Of a stretch of DNA of 64,000 bases, positions 5,056 through 42,725 are shown piece after piece. This DNA is from Cytospora piceicola (Eukaryota > Ascomycota > Sordariomycetes > Diaporthales > Cytosporaceae). Position 1 is the first letter of the stretch; each line of letters starts with the position of its first letter. Location: the NCBI GenBank assembly GCA_023375675.1, contig JALQBC010000076.1, positions 1-64,000 on the forward strand, given 5' to 3'. The notes under the pieces are model-generated. The model had not been told where the DNA came from and ran no database searches. It saw only the letters and a program-made list of their open reading frames with translations. The translations under genes were made by a program, and so were the position numbers.

Positions 5056-7138
5056 GAAGACGGTAGGAGGAGGAAACCGGAACGAAAATTACCGTGGGAC
5101 GATCTGGAGTGCTTGCGCTACGGTGCTCGAACTAGATCCATTGAGACACAGGATTCCATAAATAACGATGGTGAATGATAGAATACAAATCCTCTGGGTT
5201 GCCTGACCCAATGGACATCTTGGAAGGCCTCCTGCTGATGTTTGGTTCTTTGCTGGGTGCCGTATATTGATGGATGAGAGGTCCGGGTTTCGGAAGGTTA
5301 AGCCCGAATTACTTCTACCCCGAGGTGCTTCCTCCCTCATCACATCTTACATCGACTTACACTTTGCGATTTTCCCCTGAGAAGATCGACATGTTGGTCG
5401 TTCAGGGCAAGCACTGAGTGTTTACCTAGGTAGTTTGGCGAAGGCAACCAATGTGGATAGTCTGCATGACTTCGATGTACAGTACCTTGCCTCAATGTCT
5501 CGGGCCGACAGAGAAAGCTAAAAAGCAGCCGTAGCTTTCTCGGCGCTGCACCTGGTGGACTCCCCTGAAATCCAGCGCTCGGGCATGTACTTACTAACTA
5601 TGTAGTCATGTGGCTGTGGAAAATTACCCTCATTTCGAAATAGCGTGAAGCTGGGGACTGACACGGACATCCCATGGGATGTCTTCCTTGAAGTCGTGGT
5701 CCGTTATTATCGGCATTATATTGATGCCTCCTGGGTCAACGACTCATTCGAATTAGCATATCTCATACTTAGGTATAGAGCTTGCTAAGCCCACGGTGAG
5801 ATCATAACGGCCAGGAAGCTTATGATGTAGGTCCCAACGGCCCTGTATTCATATCCTTTCTGGTGTTGGATCTGAAATATTCGCCAAAGCACAGTTCTAC
5901 CTATGTTATCCAGTATGAGATAATTGACTTCGTCGGCCTGGTTGAATATTCGCCAGGGGGGTTGACCAGGGATGTTTCGATGCCACCATTAGATTTGGTG
6001 CAGACTAATTAAATTGCGAAGTGATGAGGTTTTCGTACTCGAGTACATAAAGCCTCTTCCGAAATCTGGAAAACACCTCGTCCATGTTGCGCCGTCTCCA
6101 TCTCCATCGGCGTTCTTCTTTGCCTGCTGCATCGAAGACATTTCGGCATGTTCATTCACCCTGAAAACTGACTAGAACTCCTCAGGCTTTGACGCACATT
6201 CGTTGAACCTGTAGATGTCTTGACGTTGTCATCCATCACACTGTGTCATTACTTGTGATGATCTCTCTGTGCTCTGGCAATGTTGATGAACAATTTATTT
6301 CGAGAATATCGCAGTATTTCCCCTGTGCAAGTTGTTCATCAACCCTTGGCATCTATTGCTTTTTCAAGCTCTTTTCAGTTCTAACACTGTGATTCACCAT
6401 ACCCTAGGGTATATATTAGGCGAAGTCACTTGTTGCTGATATGAATAGCTGCCCATTCACCTAATACAGGATGGCCAGTAGCTTTACAGGTAGGTACCTG
6501 GGTACCCGGGTAGTCACTCACAGGCTACTTAGTAAGGACGGCTCACTGTTACTGGCTTGTAAGCAGCCAGAAGAATAACAGGCACTTGTATTCGAAAAGA
6601 ACGATATGGTTATTTATAACATAAGGTAGATTACTACACAATGGGTTTCAATAATATCCATGTACTTGCAAGGTAGTCACTTAGATACCTAGACTAAGTA
6701 CCTACCTGTGTAGTTGGTGTTTAGCCGAAGATAAGCCGGGAGCAGGGGTGCAGAGCCTAATAGAGGAGGGACCGTGCATCCCGCTTTCATGTTGGAACAT
6801 CGTCGCGCCAGCATCTCTGGCACATCTTCGCGTCCATACTCTCTTCCTTCTCCATTATAGCCATTTGGCACTGTCGTTTCAACCTGGCAGACAATAGTAT
6901 CACCTTGGCCGGTGACACACACTGTACAGCCATTCATTGTTTCATCCCTTTGTAATACCCTATTAATTCCAACCCTGTCACCCAACCAAGGACGACTCCT
7001 CTATACTCGACTTCCTTGTGACTGACCGCACCAAGATCGACAGTTCCAACTCTCCCCGAAATTCGCCTCTTCCATATTGACATCGAACTACCAAGCTTCA
7101 AATCAAACTTTCTACCCGGATATACCGGATAGTCCAAG
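5056..7138. other. Intergenic region upstream of TAF12
   Basis: No supported gene; frames are short and unlike known proteins. It holds a TACCTAGGTA palindrome at 5423-5432 and further GTAC/CTAGGTA-rich stretches near 6480-6520 and 6665-6715. The last several hundred bases are presumably the promoter and leader of the downstream gene. Confidence 0.5.
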
Positions 7139-9402
7139 ATGAATCCAGGGGGACAACAGGGCCAGATGCCCCAAGGTGGCCAGGCACAGCAACAGAATGC
7201 AGCGGCAAGGGCGCAGATGTTCCGACCCGATCATATGCGGAGTCTGCCACAACTGAGCCCCGACGAGAAGGTCAAGTATGAGAACGGCCTCCGAGCGCTG
7301 TGGGGGAGCATGCAGAACGCAGCGCCTGGCTCTCCACAGCAGCTGGAGGCGCACAAGAAGATCGTGGACTTCAGTCAGCAGCTCATGCTGAAGATACGAC
7401 AGCGCGGGCCCGCATCTCAGGGTCAGCAGAACACGCAGGCTAGCAACGACCAAGGCCCAGCGTCTACCGATACCACCGCTCCCGCCGCTCCCGCCGCACC
7501 GGTGGCCCCGGTGGCCCCGGCAGCTCCGGCGGCTCAGCCCAGCCCGGCTCCTGCGGCGGCGGCCATTCCTCAGCCTCAACCACCAGCTCAAGCTCCAACG
7601 CAAGCTCCAGCTCAATCTCAACCTGCGGCCGTACGGCCTCCAACTGTGGCCATTCCTCCTTTCGTGAAGCAGCACATGGATCAGATGACATTCATTCCAC
7701 TCCAAGGCGTTATCGACCAAGGACCGGAGGCTGTTGCGAAGTGGCAGGCTGCAAATAAGGATCGGCTCCAGAAGGCCCTATTGCAAATGCACACCACGGC
7801 CGAGAAGATGAGGAACTTCGACAATTTTATCCGGCAGAAGCAGCAGAAAGGCCCGAATTTGACTGGCGAGGAACAAAAGACGGTTGCGAACATCCAAGCA
7901 ATGAAACCGCAGGTGATGAAAGCACACCAGGACGCAAAGAACTTTGTCGACACATTTCGAAACGATCAAACAGCTAGGAAGGCTGCCCAGACTGCCAATT
8001 CTCAAGGAAGACCGCCTTCAATCAGCGAGGCGCCAAATGCCAATGCAAATCAGCCAGCACGGCCTGGACCATCGCCACAACAGCCATCGCAAGCAAATGC
8101 CGGGGATGCTACAAAGAACCAGCAACCTAATGCTGGAGCTACAGTGCCAGGCGCGAACGGCCAAGCTGGGCAGCAGCAACCTCAAGCTCAACCTCAAGCT
8201 CAAACCCCAACCCAACCCCAAGCTCCACCGCAGCTGCCCAAGGCTACTCCCTCAGCACCCCCCCAGGCCTCACCTATTGCCACAACACAACCGGCTCTAG
8301 GAACGGCCTCGCAGCCTATCAAAGTCGAGCCTGGAACCCAGCAACATCCTTTGCAGCACCCCCAGCAACCACCCCAGCAACACACTCCGCAGCAACCTCA
8401 GCAGCAGCACCCGCCGCACCCACCACCCGTCAATACAGCCATCGCCTCTGCTGCAGCTACGGGTCTCAACTCAGCTGGTACACCAACTCAGAACCGCACA
8501 CCGCAAATCGCGACTCCAACAACCGGCGCACCGCGCTCACTTTCGCACCAAGCAGCTCTAAGTCTCGCCAACCAACGCGGTCCTCAGCCGGGCACGATTC
8601 CAAATCAACCCCCCCAACAAGGTACACCACAAGGTCCAGTTGGCACGCCATCATCTAGCGCACCACCAGGTGTTATGGGCACGGCTCAACCACAACAAAC
8701 GTCTGGACACCCCCACGCGCACCCAACCCAGCAGCCGCAAGCTCTTACGCAGAAGCTGCCAATCCCCAAGCAACTTCCCGAGAAAGCAGCTGCACCTCCC
8801 ACGCCTGTTTCCCTGGCTGCTGGTGGTGTGACACCAGGCCGACCCACGTACACACAAGGAGGCGGAATGGCAGGTGGAGTTATGGGCAACCCTGTCCTCG
8901 CGAAGCTCCCCGTCGTCCAGATGGAGGGCGAGGGCGAGCGGGTCCTCAACCAGAAGAAGCTGAACGACCTCGTTCGGCAGGTGTGCGGCGGACAGGCGGA
9001 GGGCCAGGAGGGCACTTCTGCGCTGACGCCCGATGTTGAGGAGGTAAGAAAACACATACAACCCCACACGCGCAGATCATCCCCTATCCTTCCATTACAT
9101 ATCCATATTTTCCTGATCTTCCAATATCTAACGCCTCATCACAGTCCATCCTTAATCTCGCCGACAGCTTCGTGGACCGCCTACTGCACGCGGCGTGCAA
9201 TAACGCCAAGCAGCGCGGCTCCAAGGTCCTCGAGATCCGCGACCTCCAGCTCGTACTGGAGCGCACTTACAACATCCGCATCCCCGGCTACTCGTCCGAC
9301 GAGCTGCGCACCGTCCGCAAGATCCAGCCGGCGCAGGGATGGATCACCAAGATGTCGGCTATCCAGGCCGCCAAGGTCATGCCTGGAAAGGGCGATCTCT
9401 GA
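7139..9402 (+). CDS. taf12: Transcription initiation factor TFIID/SAGA subunit TAF12
   Basis: Two exons, 7139-9043 and 9145-9402, joined across a 101-bp intron (GTAAGA donor, CTAACG branch site, ACAG acceptor). They give a 720-residue protein. TAF12 is a histone-fold subunit shared by TFIID and SAGA; it pairs with TAF4 (Ada1 in SAGA) in promoter recognition. The histone fold lies at about residues 598-690, from [14 protein letters not shown] through [20 protein letters not shown] to [11 protein letters not shown]. The following IPGYSSDEL and the C-terminal [12 protein letters not shown] are typical of the fungal family. The first ~600 residues are Gln/Pro/Ala-rich and mostly disordered, with one more ordered segment near residues 170-270. 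The intron falls inside the histone fold, so an unspliced reading would lose it. The ATG at 7139 gives the usual fungal N-terminus. The product is nuclear. The call is firm. Confidence 0.93.
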
Positions 9403-35351: not shown

Positions 35352-35356
35352 GTTAA
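35352..35356. repeat. Target-site duplication GTTAA, left
   Basis: Matches GTTAA at 37277-37281, flanking the LTR element exactly. Confidence 0.92.
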
Positions 35357-35548
35357 TGGTGAAGCAGAATGGGGTATTAAAGTGTATTCATCGTAGGTCT
35401 GTCTGTTGTTGTTGTGTGTTAACTAACTAAAGGCCTTAAGGGCCTTGATGGCTAGGTTTTGGTGGGGCATCTGGCATTCTGCCGGGCGGTCAGGCCTAGC
35501 CGGCCGGCAGGCAGGCTAAAATGGCCTGCACCCTATTGCGCTACAGCA
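35357..35548 (-). repeat. LTR (3' LTR of the minus-strand element)
   Basis: 192 bp, with TG/CA ends. It contains the palindrome AAGGCCTTAAGGGCCTT and a GGCC/GCCGGC-rich segment. It differs from the other LTR only at 35379 (A for G), an RIP-type change. Confidence 0.95.
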
Positions 35549-35732
35549 AGTGCCGGGCACGCAAAAAGAGTGTGACGTCCTCGTCACAAGGTCACTAGTT
35601 CAATTCCCTGCTATACACCTTTTGTCTTTTTCCATTTCCGAACCAAATCTGTTCCCAGGCCAAATCGTTCATTTCCGATGAGTTTGATTGAATCAATCGA
35701 ATCGATCAAACGTAACGGCTGGCTGGCAGCTG

Positions 35733-36872
35733 TCAAGGGACATAGGCATCGTCACCGCCATCGCCGTGGGGATCTGTATGGCCACTCGAATCACTGTAAC
35801 TATCGTTCAATTGATCGCTTTGATCGTCGCCCTGATCGTCGCCTTGATCGTTCAATTGATCGTCGCTTTGGTTGTCGCTTTGGTCGTCGCTCTGATTGTC
35901 GCTTTGGTTCAATTGAAGGCTGAGGGCATCGCCATCGCCCTCGTTGTCGCTCAATTGAATGCTGTCACCATCGTGAAGGCTGAGGGCATCGCCATCGCTG
36001 TTGTCGCCCTCGTTGTCGCTCAATTGAATGCGAGGCTGTACGTGTCCCTCCTCTTTCAAATGACTAAACAGTCTGTTGCGCGAGTCGTAGGTTAAGCCGC
36101 AAGACCTGCAAGAATGTATAGAGGACAGGCTCGAAGAGGGACGGGAAGGGAGGGAAGCGGGTGGGACAGGCGGTCTCGAGGTTGGGGAGGATCTCGAGGA
36201 GGATCTCGAGGAGGGAGGACTCGAAGGGAGACTAAATGTACCAAATCTGGGTGTGATTTGTCTCGCAGGCTGTCTCTTGTGACCGCAAACGTTCGAATAG
36301 ACGTGATCGAGAAGGGTGCGCCGTGATGTGAAGCCATCGCCACATTTGCGACACTTGAAATCAACAGCTTTGGGAAGGTTGTGATCGTGATCGGGAATGA
36401 TAAGGTCGCGCAGTGCCCTGTGGGCGGTCTGGAAGCTGGCGATTTGGGTGCGAAGCCTAGCGTTTTCTTCAGTGAGGGAACCAACCTGTTGGCGAAGGCT
36501 GACGTTCTCGAGGAGGATGTCGTGAGGTTGAGGTTGAGGTTGAGGCTGAGGCTGTTGTGACTGTTTAAGGGCTTTCTGAAGGTCTGCGACCTGAGACTGA
36601 AGGTCTAGTATGTAAACCTGTGCTTTGAGTTCAGGGTTTTCGTCCAAAGCCTTCAGAAGGACTTTACAACCGTCACTATTAAACCAGTGGTGCCAGAGGG
36701 GGTTAGGTTCGTCCCTCTGGACGGTTGTACCACAGCAATCGCAGCAAGCTTCTTGGGAATTATCGTAGGCGTAAGCATAGCGGGCGAGGTGTTCTGGCGA
36801 GGTTTCTAGGCCTTGAAAGGTCCAATCAGTGCCTTTGAAGGTGGCAAGGCAGGTGCGATAGATTAAAGGCAT
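35733..36872 (-). CDS. BIR-like / coiled-coil / C2H2 protein of the LTR element
   Basis: A 379-residue ORF with a true ATG, the only gene in the element, in the position of a Gag. Residues 6-70 resemble a baculovirus-IAP-repeat zinc fold. R6 and F12 are followed by W17, SPEHLARYAYAY (25-36), C44-x2-C47, H61/H62, and C69 in HWFNSDGCKVL. The Cys-His loop is two to three residues shorter than usual. Residues 82-157 are a coiled coil interrupted by a QPQPQPQPQP run. Two zinc fingers follow: C174/C177/H190 with C196 or H198, and C255/C258/H271/H277. A Ser/Pro linker lies between them. The tail from about 283 is an acidic repeat of SDNEGD and SDNQSDDQ units. BIR and C2H2 modules bind proteins or nucleic acids in other contexts. 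What they do here is unknown; a Gag-like structural or packaging role is a guess. Confidence 0.8.
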   Translation of the reverse strand: MPLIYRTCLATFKGTDWTFQGLETSPEHLARYAYAYDNSQEACCDCCGTTVQRDEPNPLWHHWFNSDGCKVLLKALDENPELKAQVYILDLQSQVADLQKALKQSQQPQPQPQPQPHDILLENVSLRQQVGSLTEENARLRTQIASFQTAHRALRDLIIPDHDHNLPKAVDFKCRKCGDGFTSRRTLLDHVYSNVCGHKRQPARQITPRFGTFSLPSSPPSSRSSSRSSPTSRPPVPPASLPSRPSSSLSSIHSCRSCGLTYDSRNRLFSHLKEEGHVQPRIQLSDNEGDNSDGDALSLHDGDSIQLSDNEGDGDALSLQLNQSDNQSDDQSDNQSDDQLNDQGDDQGDDQSDQLNDSYSDSSGHTDPHGDGGDDAYVP

Positions 36873-37070
36873 CGCGAGAGAGACTGGGCCAGCAAAGGCG
36901 TCCCTGATTGAATGGTTGTGGTGGTTTTGGTGATGGCGATCGGCCGTCTGGTGGGGGGTCTGGTGGGGGGTAAATTTGGTGCCTGAATTGGCGAATCTGG
37001 TCGTTTTGACACGAAAATAGTATCGTTCGAATGCTCAGAATGAGGGCATCGTGGTCGAATAGATCTTAAA

Positions 37071-37082
37071 TTGTAGCTACCA
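37071..37082 (-). promoter_or_regulatory. Putative primer-binding site
   Basis: On the minus strand TGGTAGCTACAA begins two bases inside the 5' LTR. TGGTAGC is the start of the primer-binding site used by many elements primed by initiator tRNA-Met; the following bases match less well. Confidence 0.5.
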
Positions 37083-37084
37083 TT

Positions 37085-37276
37085 TGGTGAAGCAGAATGG
37101 GGTATTGAAGTGTATTCATCGTAGGTCTGTCTGTTGTTGTTGTGTGTTAACTAACTAAAGGCCTTAAGGGCCTTGATGGCTAGGTTTTGGTGGGGCATCT
37201 GGCATTCTGCCGGGCGGTCAGGCCTAGCCGGCCGGCAGGCAGGCTAAAATGGCCTGCACCCTATTGCGCTACAGCA
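37085..37276 (-). repeat. LTR (5' LTR of the minus-strand element)
   Basis: 192 bp, with one difference from 35357-35548. Its ends read TGGTGAAG and CTACAGCA on the plus strand. Confidence 0.95.
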
Positions 37277-37281
37277 GTTAA
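37277..37281. repeat. Target-site duplication GTTAA, right
   Basis: Second copy of the five bases flanking the LTR element. Confidence 0.92.
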
Positions 37282-39830: not shown

Positions 39831-42725
39831 TATAGTTTTACGTTTAAACTATTACTATATATTACTTTTCGGTAATCGAAAAGTGTTTACTATCCCGATT
39901 TATATAGCCTTAAGTAAGAATAAAAACGTATATAAGCCTAATTCCGGCTTTACTAATATAGTAAATAGTAATAATAATAATAAGACCGAGCTTATATATA
40001 GTATACCGGATTTAACTTTCCGTTAATATTAAATATATAGTAAAAGCTTATATAACGTTAAGATTAAACGTTAGTAAAAAAGTTTAAATAAAGGTTATAT
40101 AAAGTTTTAAAAAGTAAGTTTATCTATATATAAGTTTATACTATATTCGCTAATACTTATACTTAAAATTTCTTTAAATAACTTAAGGTATTAAAAATAT
40201 AAGATAAATACGATTTTATAAATAAAGTTACTTTTCTTTATATATATATACCCCGGATTTACTATAAGTTTACTAAGTTTATATATCTTTAAAATATTTA
40301 TTATATTAAGAAACAGAAGTTAAAACTATACGTTATACTTAAAAAGCTTTAAGTTCTTTACTACCTTCTTAATACAGATAAGGTTAAAAATTACTAGGTT
40401 TAAGTATTAAAGTATATTTTTAAAGAGTTAATAAACTTAGTTAGATATAACGATATTAACTTAAATATTTACTTATTCGAGTTAACGATAGCTATATATA
40501 AAAGTATAGTTAATTTAATTAATAGTATATTTATTTATTTTACTTCTAAGATTTATATATAACCGTATATTTATAAGTATAACTAGCTTAAGTAAAAACT
40601 ACGATCGTATATTAATAAAAGGTATTAACTGTCGGTATATCTTTTCGATTTATATACTAGTAGCTTTATATATTTATAAATATAGCTATAGTAAAGAGGT
40701 ATTAATACAGATAACCTTAATATCGAATCGGATATAGAAACAGATATTAAGATTATATAAAAGAAAATAAAAAAAGATATATTTAAGTTATATTATTTAT
40801 ACGGTATTTTATTAATACTATATACTATTTACTAAGTTTATTCGGCTTTAGTTAAATTATATAAACTATTTTTAATTTTTAAAAAGTTTTTAAAACGTTT
40901 AACTTTATATATATTTATATTAAACGGAACTATACTAATTAAATAAAAGCGTTTTTTTAAAGTAGTTTATATAATATTATTAATATATACTTATATAATT
41001 TCGTATTTACTAATATACCTTTTTATTATTAGTAACTGTTTTTAATATAATATAACTAAGTATCTGTTAGTTTTATTCTAGCTTAGCTATAATATAACTA
41101 AGTAATTACTATACCTGTTCCGGCTCGGCCGTAGTACGATTAAATACCTACTAGTTTTATTCCGGCTTAGCCGTAGTATAACTAAGTAACTATTAGTTTT
41201 ATTTCGGCTCGGCTATAGTATAATTAGATTTCTATTATACTTATTTAAGCTTAAGCTTTATACTTAGTTTACGTTTAGCTTTAAGTTAAAGCTTAACTTT
41301 TATACTAAGTTTATATTTAGCTTTAAGTTAAAGCTTAATTTTTATACTTAACTTATATTTAGCTTTAAGTTAAAGCTTAACTTTTATATTCGGCTAACGT
41401 TTAACCTCGACCGAACTTATAAGCTTATTATTATCGGAAGGGTAATATTTATTATCGTTAAAAGGATTATTATAAAAAGGATTATTTATATCTTTTTCTT
41501 TAATTAAAGGTAGGCCGAGCAGATTAGGCTTTTTTAGAGCTATTAAGTCTATAAATATATTCGTATTTTAGTATACTAGTCTTTATATATATAAAGTTTT
41601 ATAACTATTTTTATCTTTATCCGAACTAGGTTAAGCTTTATCTTTTATATATATATAAACGATAATATAACTATATTACCTTTACCTTTTTTTATATAAA
41701 CAGCTACTATACCTTTCTATATAGTTTTAACCTTAGATAATAATAACGTAATATCTATTATAGTTAAAGACTACTCGGTTATAGCCGATATAATTAGTTT
41801 CTACTTTAATAAAAGTAAATCTATAAGTATACCTTTACGTATAAGAAGGTTTCGAATAAAAGCTTTATATAAAATATATTTAATATTAAGAAAGAATAAT
41901 TAAGCTAGTAAAACTTTAGCCTTATAAGTTTTATAAAACTTCGAAATAATTTACCTATATAACTTTATAGGTTTTTATTTTTTTAATTATAATATAACTA
42001 TAATTAAAGCCGAAGTAGTTTTTTTTATAATATACGTTTTTTTTTTATTATAGTACCGGTTTTAAATAACAGTTTCTATATAATCGCTAAAACTTTTCTT
42101 TATAGCATTTATAAATAAAATATTATATAGGTTTTATAATAGCTTAGTTATAAGTATACTACTTATAGTTAAAGTTATACTTAATCGTTAAACGAAAATC
42201 TTCGACGATAAGGTAAAGATAGCTATTATACCTAGTTATTATATATTATATAAAAATAAAGATATTCGAAGTAAAGTAGTAAAGTTAATAAAGAAAGGTT
42301 TACTCGACGATAGAAAAGGTAGTTTATAGTCGAGATATATAACCTATTTCGGATATTTATTTTTAATATTTATATAAAGGTTTTATATAATTAAATAATA
42401 AAGAACTAACTTATCTCGACGAAAAGATATATTAAAAGTTTTTTATACTTAAACGTATAAAGGTAAACGTTATAAACGACGTGCGATAATAGATAATATA
42501 AAGATAATAATACTTAAATAAGCTTAAGCGAAGATAAACGAAGATATAAATAAATAAAAGAGAAAGAAAAAAAGGATAATAATATAATTTTATCTTTATA
42601 TTTAAATATAGTAAACTATATATAGCTATATAGGCTATAGCATTATTGTATAGGGCTTATATATATACGGTATATTACTTAAACCTGTATAAGCAGACCT
42701 GTTTAAGGGCGTAAACTTATTAACT
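39831..42725. other. RIP-mutated transposon interior, right part
   Basis: It continues as TpA-rich sequence. At 41,040-41,400 there are several near-repeats of a GTTTTATTCCGGCTTAGC-like unit and of a TTTAGCTTTAAGTTAAAGC unit. No gene is readable. Confidence 0.75.

Follow-up and report, generated by a model that had tools for sequence, protein, structure and literature searches.

The 64,000-nucleotide stretch of Cytospora piceicola DNA analysed here (contig JALQBC010000076.1, positions 1 to 64,000; hereafter the window) contains at 35357-37276 one member of a multicopy family of long terminal repeat (LTR) elements, with a single open reading frame (ORF) on the minus strand. We favour the view, and hold it to be rather probable, that this is a trans-mobilised, TR-GAG-like non-autonomous family which has, where a Gag would be expected, a BIR-like/C2H2 protein of non-canonical type. 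The parts of the window element are as follows.

35352-35356, no strand: target-site duplication GTTAA, the copy adjoining the 3' LTR
35357-35548, minus strand: 3' LTR, 192 bp, sense TGCTG...TCACCA
35625-35633, minus strand: purine run GGAAAAAGA, the sole run of at least 8 within the final 130 nt, lying 76 nt ahead of the 3' LTR
35733-36872, minus strand: single intact ORF, 379 codons, dN/dS 0.41 against the C7 copy
35736-36023, minus strand: acidic repeat tail, residues 284-379, differing in length among copies
36042-36110, minus strand: finger B, residues 255-277, C-x2-C-x12-H-x5-H, weak Pfam match
36279-36353, minus strand: finger A, residues 174-198, C-x2-C-x12-H-x5-C-x-H, weak Pfam match, conserved in the relative P0001
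36393-36620, minus strand: possible coiled coil, about residues 85-160, weak Pfam coiled-coil matches at 91-156, differing in length between copies
36657-36857, minus strand: probable BIR-like zinc domain (profile comparisons), residues 6-72, C43-x2-C46-x15-H62-x6-C69
37071-37082, minus strand: primer-binding site TGGTAGCTACAA, complement of the last 12 nt of the host tRNA-iMet
37085-37276, minus strand: 5' LTR, 192 bp
37277-37281, no strand: target-site duplication GTTAA, second copy

Read in the sense direction the element consists of the 5' LTR, two bases, TGGTAGCTACAA, a 5' untranslated region, the ORF, a 3' untranslated region and the 3' LTR, and its two LTRs, which end in TG...CA, differ from each other by one transition. 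An initial annotation made from the letters of the window had recognised here 192-bp TG...CA LTRs with GTTAA duplications, a primer site of the tRNA-Met type and one intact 379-residue minus-strand ORF in an element without pol, all of which is borne out: the LTRs lie at 35357-35548 and 37085-37276, 12 nt of the primer site are complementary to the 3' end of the host tRNA-iMet, and the ORF extends from 36872 to 35733. For pol the 1.92-kb element offers neither room nor a reading frame, its one long ORF being without a Pfam pol domain. The coiled coil, the two C2H2-type fingers and the acidic tail are likewise present as originally read, with weak Pfam support for the coil and the fingers.

The element is not alone in the genome. 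Searches of the 43.6-Mb assembly, in which only the best candidates were scored, returned at least 28 matches to the LTR, and one further LTR was found in L021; together these account for at least 13 elements with both LTRs, a solo LTR (C33) and a pair of fragments (C57:1583 kb and C74), the elements being about 1.7-2.1 kb long and one of them nested inside another (C57:1267798-1271839). An ordinary single-copy host gene, which would have undone the initial annotation, is excluded, as all 23 genome matches of the ORF query lie at loci of the multicopy family. Exact 5-bp duplications flank 11 of the 13 two-LTR elements (the window copy C75, C7, C23a, C25m, C25p, C13, C23b, C6, C44, C57in and, after shifting the border by one base, C57c); that of C51 shows a single C/T change, C57out has none recognisable, and GTATT flanks the solo LTR on either side. 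Within the LTR pairs of 11 of the 13 elements (C57out and C57c left out) we counted 149 transitions and no transversion, with one gap in the C57in pair and one pair identical, as would be left if the two LTRs of an element were the same when it inserted and later underwent repeat-induced point mutation (RIP). The ORF is free of stops only in the window copy and in C7, the remaining copies having many TAG and TAA codons, and stops of RIP type occur in 9 of 11 aligned copies; the TA/AT ratio of the internal region, 0.51 in the two intact copies and 1.32-1.87 in the other nine, agrees with RIP of the nine that bear stops. The flanks of C13 and C57c are contiguous in another copy of the repeat in which they lie (L029), overlapping by 6 bp in the manner of an empty site; C23a, in the same repeat, gives an 11-base alignment gap instead of an overlap. 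The family thus has the structural features of LTR retrotransposons (paired repeats identical at insertion, a 5-bp target duplication and a tRNA primer site), and that it has been retrotransposed is as good as certain. Copies, target duplications, LTR pairs and the tRNA-iMet primer site all agree with the earlier description of an LTR element that is non-autonomous and whose one gene is not pol.

Between the two intact copies, C75 and C7, the ORF is under purifying selection: dN/dS is 0.41 (95% 0.28-0.58), and none of 2000 bootstraps reached 1. For residues 1-107 alone the ratio is 0.26, which is not significant (0.05-1.06). No indels occur in residues 1-75 or 251-283 across the 11 aligned copies. 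We regard it as highly probable that the ORF is functional for the element. A homologue search with the full ORF found one relative, P0001 (371 aa, E 1.6e-9), which has the fingers (HVYSNVCGH identical) and a coil in common with the ORF and is encoded on a 1995-bp contig, about the length of one element; searches with residues 1-100 and with residues 163-204 found no relatives, and outside the family the search of the assembly turned up no paralogue of the ORF. As a separate observation, dS along the C75-C7 ORF is uneven, from 0.08 (residues 1-107) to 0.68 (residues 108-165), and the copies look mosaic, as from template switching between subfamilies, or else the coil looks misaligned.

The N-terminal domain of the protein probably belongs to the BIR clan, on sequence comparison, as a non-canonical, BIR-like member. 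According to the accessible part of PMC9586977 this clan comprises BIR, zf-C3HC and Rsm1, which have a three-stranded sheet with helices around one zinc, and the BIR consensus is C-x2-C-x16-H-x6-C. The domain shares with the clan as described there the order CxxC...H-x6-C and has T-F, W-x-F, SPxxLA and NPxxxHxxxSxGC stretches (cf. Survivin). The Pfam family zf-C3HC matches residues 1-90 with E 0.0035 (17.8 bits) and the whole ORF with E 0.021, and a six-frame scan of the genome with it at E up to 10, in which three candidates passed the first look, gave three matches, with E 2.3e-35 for a host gene and 0.44 and 1.09 for the two intact copies. Alignment of the two copies with eight BIR stretches by hhalign gave a probability of 70.6 (P 3.9e-5); the aligned part is residues 9-73, and its ligands fall on those of the BIR stretches. 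Finally, a BIR profile built from the eight stretches scored 11.3 bits, a value reached by 9 of 20,000 shuffles; among 1402 fragments of matching length from the other ORFs of the window none came up to it, the best scoring 7.2.

Then again, a good deal weighs against this assignment. The zf-C3HC score of 17.8 bits is below the Pfam cut-off of 22.2, and zf-C3HC has H-x3-C where the element's domain has H-x6-C, the spacing of canonical BIRs. The Pfam BIR model PF00653 was not reported for the ORF; its two matches in the genome both fall within one region of C1, a Bir1-like gene. The two intact copies are 95% identical in the N-terminal domain and hence not independent. When Cys and His were held fixed, 157 of 20,000 shuffles scored as well on the BIR profile, so that much of its signal is the ligand pattern. 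As to the pattern itself, the spacing C-x2-C-x15-H-x6-C is one residue short of the BIR consensus; of the Rxx(S/T)-aromatic motif T11-F12 are present with the Arg two residues further upstream, the Gly-aromatic before strand 1 is replaced by A33-Y34, and the aromatic residue two positions after the last Cys is replaced by V71. Together with its location in a retrotransposon, these features (spacer of 15 and not 16, displaced Arg, missing Gly-aromatic and final aromatic) set the domain apart from the clan as presented in the accessible text. AlphaFold2 on the single sequences gave pLDDT values of 43.7 and 42.0, too low for a usable model of the fold. The initial annotation had read the first 70 residues as BIR-like, and this stands in part: profile support is moderate, and of four BIR signatures two are nearly present and two absent.

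How would an element without pol be copied? The primer site points to the host initiator tRNA. An initiator-tRNA pattern was matched at four places in the genome, each of which ends in TTGTAGCTA. They have the same exons, and ARAGORN calls tRNA-Met(cat) in all four once the interruption is taken out. CCA is added to tRNAs, and the last 12 nt of this tRNA, the added CCA included, are complementary to TGGTAGCTACAA, which lies two bases from the 5' LTR (37082-37071, minus strand). The site, RIP-type variants included, is present in 12 of 12 copies listed, and no primer match was found among the other host tRNAs in the 40 of 58 tRNA matches examined. A looser 14-base pattern of the site occurs at 62 places, against 2 in a reversed control, and 11 of these are family members. 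Two of the others (in L021 and L029) lie in an AT-rich head-to-head palindromic repeat without a Pfam domain, and of three places with the un-RIPed sequence the one examined (L086, 401 bp) resembles the inside of a protein-coding gene; a second LTR family behind the surplus places was considered and dropped, those examined being palindromic repeat or apparent gene interior. As the looser pattern is also found elsewhere, the diagnostic value lies in the position of the primer site and not in its sequence by itself.

A reverse transcriptase and integrase would have to come from another element, and mobilisation of the family in trans is very likely. Of the 58 RVT_1 matches in the genome we examined 19 pol loci, 15 of which have LTR pairs (11 Gypsy and 4 Copia, the latter from 11 Copia matches), and none of these 15 shows by eye the LTR ends or the primer site of the family. 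The pattern of the LTR/primer junction occurs at 14 places, namely 11 primer junctions of the family, the end of one of its 3' LTRs together with the adjoining target duplication, and two others, which are taken as chance. The surroundings of 13 insertions (the solo LTR and 12 elements with two LTRs, C57in being left out as nested) have 15-37% GC and RIP-like dinucleotide ratios; across the window as a whole, a GC content under 0.40 is found in 19 of 156 tiles. Mean flank GC is 0.242 for the family (13 insertions), 0.282 for Gypsy (n=11) and 0.485 for Copia (n=4), with P 0.0008 for family versus Copia and 0.19 for family versus Gypsy. This leans towards a Gypsy-type helper or shared targeting, and similar values could also arise through insertions surviving in gene-poor DNA. 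A local Copia element as helper, as is proposed for the fungal Helenus TRIMs in the available part of PMC10886601, is rather unlikely: the four Copia elements with LTR pairs differ by eye at the position of the primer site, and the 48.5% mean GC of Copia flanks is far from the 24% of the family and the 28% of the 11 Gypsy flanks. One Gypsy element (L026) has open frames for a 632-aa CCHC Gag unrelated to the ORF and for a 1472-aa Pol, with a chromodomain recognised by eye. This Ty3/Gypsy element (L026:1664-8766, in C58) has aligned LTR pieces that are 100% identical, one LTR being about 100 bp longer, and from its sequence it is possibly active in the same genome.

Further observations count on the opposite side from our reading of the family. 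No helper was identified: among the best genome candidates there is no pol-bearing partner with the ORF or the LTR/primer junction, and the autonomous partner with the same LTR ends envisaged by the initial annotation did not come to light. Among the Pfam matches of the ORF at E up to 10 there is no gag family, and P0001, the sole relative found, is without the N-terminal domain. The loose primer-site pattern, as said, is also present outside the family (62 places, 11 of them in it). Moreover, the 3' LTR has no purine tract directly next to it. In all 8 copies checked the closest run of at least 8 stands 65-76 nt before it (65-69 nt in the seven other than the window copy), and plus-strand priming is thus left unexplained; such a run lies 1-3 nt from the 3' LTR in three of three local Gypsy elements and was not present in two of two Copia elements. 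In this context we mention that in the sense 3' region, for example at 35549-35633, the purine tract (GGAAAAAAGGAGG in C7 and C23a) is followed by TGTAYAGCAG or TATACAGCAG, some 65-70 nt before the 3' LTR, and that the two resemble a displaced polypurine tract and LTR start. The palindrome GTGCCCGGCAC at the LTR border is kept with RIP-type changes.

We suggest the following course of events. In this RIP-proficient filamentous fungus, the reverse transcriptase and integrase of another LTR element would copy the family in trans. RNA presumably starts in the 5' LTR and would be translated into a protein of 379-410 residues, whose coiled coil may serve self-association and whose fingers may contact RNA or DNA of the element itself. 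The BIR-like domain would serve for docking onto other proteins, in the helper particle or of the host, and the protein would stand where a Gag normally stands, although it cannot be recognised as one. Whether its role is Gag-like or in packaging rather than regulatory is evenly balanced. Survivin and Bir1 read histone H3 through their BIR, and the chromodomain on Gypsy integrase has a targeting role, which would be the in-cis counterpart. By analogy the BIR-like module might steer insertion by tethering the borrowed integration complex to heterochromatin in trans, an idea which we rate as quite improbable; all 13 measured insertions have AT-rich, RIP-like surroundings.

But could the ORF not simply be a fast-diverged true Gag, from a pol-bearing lineage that is lost or unsampled, with the element an ordinary deletion derivative of the TR-GAG kind and the likeness to BIR a chance zinc site? 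A divergent Gag is possible, if doubtful. The place of the ORF, its zinc fingers and its possible coiled coil are of the kind seen in Gag, the BIR-profile signal is largely a matter of Cys and His (the 157 in 20,000 fixed-ligand shuffles), and in P0001 a coil and the fingers occur although the N-terminal domain is missing. However, the ORF has no match at any locus outside the family, the sole intact-looking Gypsy element has the unrelated 632-aa CCHC Gag, and both hhalign and the genome-wide zf-C3HC scan single out the N-terminal domain.

The C2H2-type fingers and the acidic low-complexity tail also resemble those of transcription factors, and the protein might accordingly be a regulatory or counter-silencing factor of a TRIM-like element, acting on its own LTR or on host silencing and not in a particle. 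We consider this unlikely, since DNA binding and an LTR target are without support in our analysis and the RIP-type stops in 9 of 11 aligned copies mean that any protection would be weak. Very unlikely, in our estimate, is the recent capture of a host BIR or C2H2 gene as a passenger between two LTRs, to which the initial annotation had given some room. BIR and zf-C3HC are host domain types, and the genome has a Bir1-like gene as well as one with zf-C3HC; the capture is nevertheless not supported, as the ORF has no paralogue outside the family in this genome and is under purifying selection.

With these alternatives in mind we return to the trans-mobilised family with its BIR-like/C2H2 protein. 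Known non-autonomous LTR elements are mostly coding-empty (TRIM) or have a helper-like Gag (TR-GAG). The TR-GAG elements of plants are, in the accessible part of PMC8704663, non-autonomous LTR elements with one GAG ORF, and for one of them in Arabidopsis transposition in trans and a similar, potentially autonomous relative are described. The fungal family resembles them in its two LTRs, its single ORF in the Gag position and the lack of pol, trans transposition being shown for the Arabidopsis element and inferred here; it differs in that the Arabidopsis ORF is GAG, whereas no Gag domain was detected by Pfam and no pol-bearing relative found in the fungal family. The Helenus TRIMs of fungi (TRIMp3), as far as the available text of PMC10886601 goes, have a tRNA-like sequence in the LTR, are 311-1263 bp long and have no coding ORF described for them, in contrast to the selected ORF of our family. 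No tRNA-like sequence was found in the window by ARAGORN and Rfam or in six other copies by Rfam; a tRNA-derived, Helenus-type element had been considered on account of an antisense T-arm suspected by eye near the 3' LTR, and was rejected on these negative results. With neither a recognisable GAG nor a tRNA-like LTR, the family lacks one defining feature of TR-GAG and one of Helenus. In the literature searched, with most subscription journals and Repbase outside the search, we found no non-autonomous fungal LTR element with a BIR-like or C2H2 protein, nor any LTR element with a BIR-like one; the literature covered includes PMC3441728, PMC3286476 and PMC10799480. If our reading is true, such elements can evolve an accessory protein of their own, selected, non-Gag and with a BIR-like zinc domain, and a domain of the cell-division or nuclear-basket type would enter the biology of mobile elements. 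The two intact copies make the family testable.

The initiator tRNA genes deserve a remark of their own. An intron of 55-56 nt interrupts the D-arm, behind base 22, in every one of the four tRNA-iMet genes found (L089-L092).

C1:1034462, C25:1676212, C32:242386 and C32:347855: tRNA-iMet genes (L089-L092)

The introns read GTGAGT...CTAAC...AAG, with CTAAC starting 16 nt before the 3' border, and are otherwise diverged with these signals kept. The intron looks like a spliceosomal-type one, judged by its sequence, away from the canonical site next to the anticodon. ARAGORN misses two of the genes in their unaltered form and all four with longer flanks, because they are interrupted, and Rfam gives 22-30 bits over the unspliced stretch. 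We found no comparable tRNA intron in the literature, the accessible part of PMC4090602 included.

Elsewhere in the genome, the RIP-like AT-rich head-to-head repeat occupies L029:2-2461 (minus strand) and 6032-8446 (plus strand), L021:3580-3990 and flanks in L010 and L015; no Pfam domain appears when it is read through, and three family members sit inside it. Contig C65 (135 kb), with many tRNAs and two reverse-transcriptase frames with internal TGA, is probably a large mitochondrial genome with intron-encoded reverse transcriptases. In the window itself, a two-copy 202-bp tandem repeat lies near the start (220-615), and 42-bp tandem repeats are found in an AT-rich island at 41046-41388.
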